Assembly: GCF_010729665.1 (NCBI RefSeq)
Contig: NZ_AP022610.1
Location: 1 to 64,000 of the forward strand
Length of the DNA stretch: 64,000 nt
Direction: 5' to 3'
From: Mycolicibacterium madagascariense
GTDB taxonomy: Bacteria > Actinomycetota > Actinomycetes > Mycobacteriales > Mycobacteriaceae
Part shown: positions 52,456 to 54,446 of the stretch, in pieces
Layout of the letters: the number at the start of each line of letters is the position of its first letter
Position numbering within the stretch: position 1 is the first letter of the stretch
Program-made: the position numbers and the translations under genes
The notes under the pieces: generated by a model
The model's input: the letters and a program-made list of their open reading frames with translations, nothing else
Database searches by the model: none
Told to the model about the DNA's origin: nothing

Positions 52456-52619
52456 GCGTTGGTTTCCACCACTTTCAGCAACGTCTAGCGTGAGCGGTCA
52501 CGGCTGGATCCGACGTCAACGGGGACGTATTCGTCGGGGGGTTGATCTACAGTCGCGGTGATGGTGTCGAACGGATGTTCGATCGCCTGTCGGACGTGAA
52601 GGGGTAGGTGGGACGCTTC

Positions 52620-54446
52620 GTGGCTGTCGTCGATGACCTTGGCAGGCAGGGTGGTCATTCCGGGGGGCGTACCGACGAGGCGGGCCCGCCCGCCGAGGAC
52701 TACGGCCGCCAACCGCCCCAGGACATGGCGGCCGAGCAGTCCGTGCTCGGGGGGATGCTGCTCTCCAAGGACGCCATCGCCGACGTGCTCGAGCGCCTGC
52801 GGCCCGGGGACTTCTACCGTCCGGCCCACCAGAGCGTGTACGACGCGATCCTCGACCTGTATGGGCGCGGTGAGCCGGCCGACGCCATCACGGTGGCCGC
52901 CGAGCTGGACCGCCGCGGGCTGCTGAAGCGCGTGGGCGGGGCGCCCTATCTGCACACGCTGATCTCGACGGTGCCGACGGCGGCCAACGCCGGCTTCTAC
53001 GCGGGCATCGTGGCCGAGAAGTCGCTGCTGCGCCGGCTCGTCGAGGCGGGCACGCGAGTGGTGCAGTACGGGTACGCGGGTGCCGACGGATCTGACGTCG
53101 CCGAGGTCGTGGACCGGGCGCAGGCCGAGATCTACGACGTGACCGAGCGCCGCACCCGTGAGGACTTCACCGTCCTGGAGGACCTGCTGCAGCCCACGAT
53201 GGACGAGATCGACGCCATCGCATCGCAAGGCGGCATCGCGCGCGGCGTGCCCACCGGCTTCGTCGAACTCGACGAGGTGACCAACGGCCTGCACCCCGGG
53301 CAGATGATCGTGGTGGCGGCACGGCCCGGCGTGGGCAAGGCGCTGGCACTGGACACTCCGCTGGCCACCCCGGGCGGGTGGACGACGATGGGCGACGTCC
53401 GGGTCGGCGACCAGCTCCTCGGGGCCGACGGTGAGCCGACGCGCGTCGTGGCGGCGACCGAGGTCATGACCGGACGGCCCTGCTACGAGGTCGAGTTCTC
53501 CGACGGCACCATGATCGTCGCCGACGAGCTGCACCAGTGGCCGACCGAGGCAGGCATCCGCACGACCGTCGAATTGCGCAGTGGCGCAGACCGACTCATT
53601 CCGACCACCCTCGGTGCGACCAGGGGCGGCGGGACGGGTCTGCTGACCCGCGGCGTCCACGTGGCGTGGGTCCGGGCGGTGGCGAGTGTCCCCGTGCGAT
53701 GCGTGGAGGTCGACAACGAGTCGCACCTGTACCTCGCCGGCGAGGGCATGGTGCCGACGCACAACTCGACGCTGGGATTGGACTTCCTGCGGTCGTGCTC
53801 GATCAAGGGCCGCATGCCGAGCATCGTGTTCTCCCTGGAGATGAGCAAGCCCGAGATCGTCATGCGACTGCTGTCGGCCGAGGCGAAGATCAAGCTCGCC
53901 GACATGCGATCCGGTCGAATGAGTGACGACGACTGGACGCGACTGGCCCGCCGCATGAGCGAGATCAGCGAGGCGCCGCTCTACATCGACGATTCACCGA
54001 ACCTCACGATGATGGAGATTCGCGCCAAGGCGCGCCGACTGCACCAGAAGGTGGACCTGCGTCTGATCGTCATCGACTACCTGCAGCTGATGACCTCGGG
54101 CAAGAAGGTCGAGTCGCGCCAGCAGGAAGTCTCCGAATTGTCGCGGCAGATCAAGCTTTTGGCGAAGGAGCTCGAAGTGCCGGTGGTCGCGATGAGCCAG
54201 CTGAACCGTGGTCCGGAGCAACGAACCGACAAGAAGCCGATGCTGTCCGACCTCCGCGAGTCGGGATCAATCGAGCAGGATGCGGACATGGTCGTCCTGT
54301 TGCACCGGCCGGACGCGTTCGAGCGGGACGACCCGCGCGGCGGGGAGGCCGACCTCATCATCGCCAAACACCGTGCGGGACCGACGAAGACGATCACCGT
54401 GGCGCATCAGCTGCACCTGTCGCGGTTTGCGAACATGGCGCACTGA
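52620..54446 (+). CDS. dnaB: Replicative DNA helicase DnaB, interrupted by an in-frame mini-intein
   Basis: Hexameric 5'-3' helicase of the replisome. GTG at 52620 gives MAVVDDLGRQGG, like the mycobacterial start MAVVDDL; a GTG four codons earlier is in frame but too near the ribosome site. The N-terminal DnaB domain (AAEQSVLGGMLLSKDAIADVL) leads to the RecA-like domain, where the Walker A reads GVGK, then the intein, then STLGLDFL. Downstream are SLEMSKPEIVMRLL, LRLIVIDYLQLM (Walker B), MSQLNRGPEQRTDKKPML and SGSIEQDADMVVLLHR. 608 residues with the intein, 466 after splicing. The second insertion site used in some mycobacteria (after RESG) is empty. Confidence 0.95.
   Translation: MAVVDDLGRQGGHSGGRTDEAGPPAEDYGRQPPQDMAAEQSVLGGMLLSKDAIADVLERLRPGDFYRPAHQSVYDAILDLYGRGEPADAITVAAELDRRGLLKRVGGAPYLHTLISTVPTAANAGFYAGIVAEKSLLRRLVEAGTRVVQYGYAGADGSDVAEVVDRAQAEIYDVTERRTREDFTVLEDLLQPTMDEIDAIASQGGIARGVPTGFVELDEVTNGLHPGQMIVVAARPGVGKALALDTPLATPGGWTTMGDVRVGDQLLGADGEPTRVVAATEVMTGRPCYEVEFSDGTMIVADELHQWPTEAGIRTTVELRSGADRLIPTTLGATRGGGTGLLTRGVHVAWVRAVASVPVRCVEVDNESHLYLAGEGMVPTHNSTLGLDFLRSCSIKGRMPSIVFSLEMSKPEIVMRLLSAEAKIKLADMRSGRMSDDDWTRLARRMSEISEAPLYIDDSPNLTMMEIRAKARRLHQKVDLRLIVIDYLQLMTSGKKVESRQQEVSELSRQIKLLAKELEVPVVAMSQLNRGPEQRTDKKPMLSDLRESGSIEQDADMVVLLHRPDAFERDDPRGGEADLIIAKHRAGPTKTITVAHQLHLSRFANMAH
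53340..53765 (+). other. Class 3 mini-intein in the DnaB P-loop
   Basis: 142 residues lie exactly between GVGK and STL of the Walker A. It starts with Ala, not Cys or Ser, and ends HN before Ser. Block A is ALALDTPLATPGGWTTMGDV. Block B has ELHQW (Trp67 counted from Ala1), block F VPVRCVEVDNESHLYLAG (Cys121), block G GMVPTHN (Thr140). Ala1 plus this Trp-Cys-Thr set is the hallmark of class 3 inteins, in which the block F Cys makes the first attack. No homing endonuclease domain fits. The M. smegmatis DnaB mini-intein of this kind is known and redox-sensitive. The boundaries are from host-protein alignment to memory. Confidence 0.92.

Follow-up and report, generated by a model that had tools for sequence, protein, structure and literature searches.

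A class 3 mini-intein in the ATP-binding loop of Mycolicibacterium madagascariense DnaB carrying the cysteine pair of a redox-sensitive relative

The questions raised by the dnaB locus of Mycolicibacterium madagascariense are what interrupts this replicative DNA helicase gene, whether the helicase could work before the interruption is removed, and whether resemblance to a redox-sensitive intein of M. smegmatis makes the element a switch on replication. The locus was analyzed within positions 1 to 64,000 of contig NZ_AP022610.1 (assembly GCF_010729665.1), a stretch of 64,000 nucleotides referred to here as the window. The element is almost certainly a functional class 3 mini-intein at the DnaB-b insertion site, its allele type that of M. 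smegmatis DnaBi1, with redox chemistry possible. It is intact and of an already known type, of which it is one further example.

The dnaB open reading frame (ORF) runs uninterrupted by stops from 52608 to 54446 on the forward strand and encodes 612 amino acids from its first GTG (52608); the database protein (P0003, 608 amino acids) starts at the GTG at 52620. The PF03796 (DnaB_C) profile matched in two pieces, profile positions 1–33 before the insert and 33–255 after it, and the match was unbroken at the second known intein site (DnaB-a, motif H4), which is empty. Features are listed below, with residue counts from 202 distinct sequences, the window included.

52620..54446, forward strand: dnaB, replicative DNA helicase precursor with intein (TIGR00665 DnaB, 515 bits; PF00772; PF03796)
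52620..53339, forward strand: N-extein of DnaB, with AARPGVGK, where Walker A begins, at its end
53340..53765, forward strand: class 3 mini-intein, 142 amino acids, insertion site DnaB-b (P-loop)
53340..53342, forward strand: Ala1, without a nucleophile at intein position 1 (Ala in 201/202)
53481..53483, forward strand: Cys48, counterpart of the redox disulfide partner in M. smegmatis DnaBi1 (202/202)
53523..53534, forward strand: block B DxxH, Asp62 to His65 (Asp62 200/202, His65 202/202)
53538..53540, forward strand: Trp67 (block B:12), W of the Trp-Cys-Thr (WCT) set (202/202)
53607..53648, forward strand: residues 90–103, variable linker between blocks B and F, model confidence <50
53700..53702, forward strand: Cys121 (block F:4), predicted catalytic nucleophile by homology, C of the WCT set (202/202)
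53730..53732, forward strand: Tyr131, counterpart of M. smegmatis zinc ligand Tyr128 (198/202)
53757..53765, forward strand: Thr140-His141-Asn142 (block G), T of the WCT set and cyclizing Asn (202/202)
53766..54446, forward strand: C-extein of DnaB; its first residue, Ser+1, is the second nucleophile of splicing and also the Walker A Ser

A preliminary description of the window had placed a class 3 mini-intein at 53340..53765, splitting the Walker A motif. Codon-by-codon reading reproduced its coordinates and residue numbers, with 142 in-frame codons between the Lys and Ser of the loop (GVGK/STLG, the slash marking the insertion point). The split was borne out by alignment and by the empty site of five dnaB genes without an intein that we picked from the genus, which read RPG[VM]GK/STL without gain or loss of a residue. 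All of the class 3 signature is present (Ala1, His65, Trp67, Cys121, Thr140, His141, Asn142 and Ser+1), as is the Hint (Hedgehog/intein) fold. Three PDB sequences matched query residues 1–142 or 1–141 (E 1.2e-61 to 2.5e-57), well outside chance, and the intein aligned over its whole length with the solved M. smegmatis and M. chimaera DnaB inteins, Trp67 with Trp67 of both and Cys121 with Cys118/Cys124, in agreement with the class first proposed. The class 1 motif, sought by alignment, was not found: position 1 is Ala rather than the Cys or Ser of class 1, and Trp67 and the block F Cys occur in 202/202 sequences. No Pfam family reached its cut-off on the 142-residue intein, which has no homing endonuclease domain and is thus a mini-intein, as alignment and the solved structures of close relatives also indicate.

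The 202 sequences lean to close relatives, because the contig and viral scans were seeded with the same six peptides (one including Cys48, one Cys121) and the protein search scored the 7993 best-sharing candidates, with 120 of its 6289 matches listed. The parser for long inteins required Ala/Pro at position 1 and Thr/Ser-His-Asn at the end, so that those positions are partly imposed; positions 48, 62, 65, 67, 121 and 131 were not imposed by it. At least 505 of 594 candidate contig stretches encode intein relatives, the 80 retained all being actinobacterial by record title. Within the taxonomic class of the window, 91 of 246 genomes had a match at E ≤ 0.001, mainly split or partial, so not all represent the same allele. 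Named mycobacterial plasmids with dnaB and such inteins made up 6 of the 21 plasmid records with a match. In the M. madagascariense genome no other intein was found, the intein C-terminal model matching only the dnaB intein; the N-terminal model gave no match above cut-off, a weak test in that it also missed the window's own class 3 intein. One N-terminal match below cut-off (17.1 bits; G000 C1:4395929-4396072, in a 952-residue frame), with nothing there for the C-terminal model, is probably due to chance.

By analogy with its relatives, splicing would begin with attack of Cys121 on the Lys/Ala junction; the N-extein would then be transferred to Ser+1, and cyclization of Asn142 would leave the exteins joined as GVGKSTL. 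Both Cys F:4 and Trp B:12 were shown to be required in the DnaB inteins of M. smegmatis and M. leprae (PMC5222942), and formation of the first branched intermediate by Cys F:4, a class 3 criterion, is reported for both inteins. Until splicing, the ATP-binding loop of DnaB in the precursor would be incomplete. Ser+1 serves in splicing and is at the same time the P-loop serine involved in Mg2+ binding (PMC6195587), and therefore the unspliced precursor should lack ATPase activity. That the helicase would be dead until splicing, as the preliminary description held, is a sound expectation; the M. smegmatis authors say of inactive unspliced DnaB only that it is "reasonable to assume" (PMC6195587). 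No second DnaB was found by PF03796 search of the genome, which is 99.94% complete; the only other match was short, in a 465-residue ORF that looks like RadA by sequence. With a single DnaB, replication should therefore depend on intein splicing.

G+C content at third codon positions was 0.90 in the intein and 0.91 and 0.88 in the exteins, and this closeness gives no sign of recent foreign DNA. The ratio of nonsynonymous to synonymous substitution (dN/dS) against seven mini-intein relatives was 0.13–0.18 for the intein and 0.05–0.07 for the exteins (simple pairwise counts, with dS ~1 in two of the pairs). The intein is under purifying selection, weaker than that on its helicase host.

These data bear on two other accounts of the element. 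The Hint fold is shared between classes, and among solved structures the gp41-1 intein, which belongs to class 1 (PMC7664689), comes next after the DnaB inteins of class 3, so a class 1 or class 2 intein could in principle have been mistaken for class 3. Ala1 stands where class 1 needs Cys or Ser, Trp67, Cys121 and Thr140 are all there, and close relatives were shown by mutagenesis to be class 3, which makes such a mistake highly improbable. An equally slender chance attaches to a dead intein, the gene being expressed, the precursor remaining unspliced and another helicase doing the work. An inactive class 3-type intein pseudogene in Arthrobacter provides a precedent (PMC3196547); here, however, no catalytic residue has been lost, dN/dS lies far under 1, and the 99.94% complete genome yielded no other helicase of this kind.

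Whether the mini-intein is also a dedicated redox switch, kept by selection as it pauses replication under oxidative stress, turns on Cys48, which the preliminary description overlooked while raising redox control. In M. smegmatis, peroxide leads to a Cys48-Cys118 disulfide, detected by mass spectrometry, and splicing is reversibly blocked (PMC6195587). The sequence precondition of such gating, Cys48 plus the catalytic Cys121, was found in the window intein, and these are its only two cysteines; 57 of 96 non-redundant mini-inteins likewise have just two. Counterparts of the zinc-binding Cys118, Val119 and Tyr128 of M. smegmatis are present as well (Cys121, Val122 and Tyr131). Cys48 and Cys121 make splicing sensitive to oxidation chemically possible and would permit redox gating; that the cell has such control is an inference from the relative.

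The distribution of Cys48 extends beyond DnaB. Of 33 viral loci, several being near-copies, 31 had it; in both exceptions the flank is, by our reading, PhoH-like. Among 18 class 3 inteins chosen by hand (17 phage, 1 plasmid; 3 from the best list, 14 from a spread of 454 phage records and 1 of 21 plasmid records), 10 had Cys at position 48 and the other 8 had Ser, Thr, Met or Val; Trp67, Cys121 and Thr140 were present in all 18. Two PhoH-type inteins of the same genus had Ile there (one of them, L158, identified as PhoH by Pfam). Cys48, termed non-conserved by the M. smegmatis authors (PMC6195587), looks on these sequences like a fixed trait of the lineage with DnaB-b and many terminase inteins rather than of the class. 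A proposed exchange of Cys48 for Cys62 (CxxH replacing DxxH), exclusive in a first set of sequences, was dropped when two loci (L134 and L136) were found to carry both.

A switch selected for pausing replication would agree with the presence of the pair, with the same pair forming the reversible disulfide in M. smegmatis, and with Cys48 in every distinct sequence. Yet Cys48 is also found in phage inteins at unrelated sites and so was probably not acquired for DnaB, and it is required for splicing itself in M. smegmatis, where seven of seven tested changes abolish it (PMC6195587). A requirement for splicing would explain the conservation of Cys48 just as well; this conservation is no evidence that a sensor was selected in DnaB. 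The element is moreover dispensable: 28 of 98 genomes of the genus are without a strong match, and the five read have an uninterrupted site. A dedicated switch consequently seems unlikely to us. Our preferred reading, a functional mini-intein with redox chemistry possible, has its own counterweights: the purifying selection could reflect the need to splice alone rather than regulation, a part in folding or catalysis would account for Cys48 being conserved even if it had no sensor role, and the account of the window protein is drawn from sequence and relatives. The M. smegmatis point mutants could not separate sensing from splicing because all had lost splicing; class 3 inteins with Ser, Thr, Met, Val or Ile at position 48 are natural variants on which it could be tested whether the two are separable.

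The site was then compared across the genus. Among the 98 genomes, including that of the window, 34 had a full-length short match and 39 a strong match interrupted by an insertion; both kinds occurred in 3 and neither in 28, four of which had weak matches elsewhere (8 of the 98 genomes are <90% complete or >5% contaminated). All 40 split places were fetched and 36 parsed (the parser did not recover L167, L175, L176 and L185), and these encode DnaB inteins of 233–417 amino acids at the same Lys/Ser site, their extra sequence sitting between blocks B and F, in the stretch that holds residues 90–103 of the window intein. By simple text pattern, both LAGLIDADG acidic motifs were present in 23 of the 36, one in 2 and neither in 11. 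Of five long inteins examined with Pfam, L149 and L159 exceeded the cut-offs for LAGLIDADG_3 and Hom_end and L155 that for LAGLIDADG_3 alone, while L150 and L151 (235 amino acids) matched neither. Mycobacterial DnaB-b inteins were described in 2016 as without endonucleases (PMC5050341); in a survey from 2020, however, 82.5% of 1701 class 3 inteins had LAGLIDADG motifs (PMC7891396), and for that reason the long alleles are not claimed as unreported. Within one genus the site thus occurs with LAGLIDADG-bearing long inteins, decayed remnants, mini-inteins or no insert. Six genomes of the genus have a second dnaB on another contig (L150, L151, L153, L161, L163 and L174), with an intein of 233–235 amino acids at this site that has lost the LAGLIDADG motifs; in G040 the site of the other dnaB copy is uninterrupted.

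In the extein tree, the smallest starred set containing the window had 9 rows (Shimodaira-Hasegawa-like approximate likelihood ratio test, SH-aLRT, 96): eight mini-intein rows, the window included, and one 417-residue allele, L149 (G035 C33). L149 shares 94.4% identity with the window in the exteins and 74.5% in the splicing domain, and the splicing domains of L004, L005 and L006 share 89–91% with that of the window. This suggests that one allele may have been replaced by another in close relatives, with L149 the candidate. L149 is a LAGLIDADG class 3 intein whose endonuclease region contains a cysteine-rich, zinc-finger-like stretch. To place the labels mini, long and empty on the extein tree took 20 changes, against a mean of 36.9 after shuffling, although starred branches force only 3 per label. 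On the intein tree, built from only 110 columns and with 12 of 128 inner branches starred, mini and long required 4 changes, and there may have been a single origin. The longest end branch of the intein tree leads to a 130-residue DnaB-b intein (L195; G020 C2). A DnaB-b intein from a metagenome-assembled genome (MAG) recorded as Bifidobacterium breve (L039) grouped with that of another actinobacterial MAG among mycobacterial ones, and the bin or its name may be wrong.

We give even odds to a broader view, in which the Walker A site of DnaB in mycobacteria is actively contested and does not house a fixed, domesticated mini-intein. Endonuclease-bearing class 3 alleles would still invade it and decay stepwise, the window mini-intein being one stage of a homing cycle and its cysteine pair an inherited trait of the phage-related lineage, required for splicing and older than any sensor use. 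Because close relatives differ in having a mini, an endonuclease-bearing or an empty allele at one essential site, domestication versus selfish cycling can be tested directly.

Among known systems, the mycobacteriophage terminase (TerL1-c/e) class 3 inteins share the class and, as reported, a common clade with mycobacterial DnaB-b inteins (PMC5050341) and differ in host protein and site. Cys48 and the WCT set recur in the terminase intein of Gaia, whereas that of Big3 has Thr at position 48 and that of CMP1 likewise lacks Cys48; the phage class 3 inteins, terminase ones included, have 326–354 amino acids (17 phage loci) against 142. A single 1002-residue database protein (P0004), which looks to us like a phage terminase, contains three mini-inteins of class 3. 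Cys48 and the WCT set are present in all three, which end in HN followed by Ser, Ser and Thr, respectively. The M. leprae DnaB intein (145 amino acids, 64% identity; L057) is a class 3 intein at the same site with demonstrated splicing, and has two further cysteines, C81 and C110, as reported (PMC8557812), that the window intein lacks. The M. chimaera DnaB1 intein (PDB 6rix/6riy; 145 amino acids) is of the same class and matched over its full length at 68–69% identity, with differences mainly in the linker. Finally, M. smegmatis DnaBi1 (Msm DnaB-1 intein; PDB 6bs8/6own; 139 amino acids) shares the gene, the Lys/Ser P-loop site, the mini-intein form, the catalytic set and, as the only two cysteines, Cys48 and that of block F, at 64% identity by Foldseek alignment; M. 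smegmatis DnaB has a second intein at site a, which the window dnaB is without. The value of the locus lies in this comparison, with a redox pair common to the lineage and to phage inteins, at a site where endonuclease-bearing alleles still occur.
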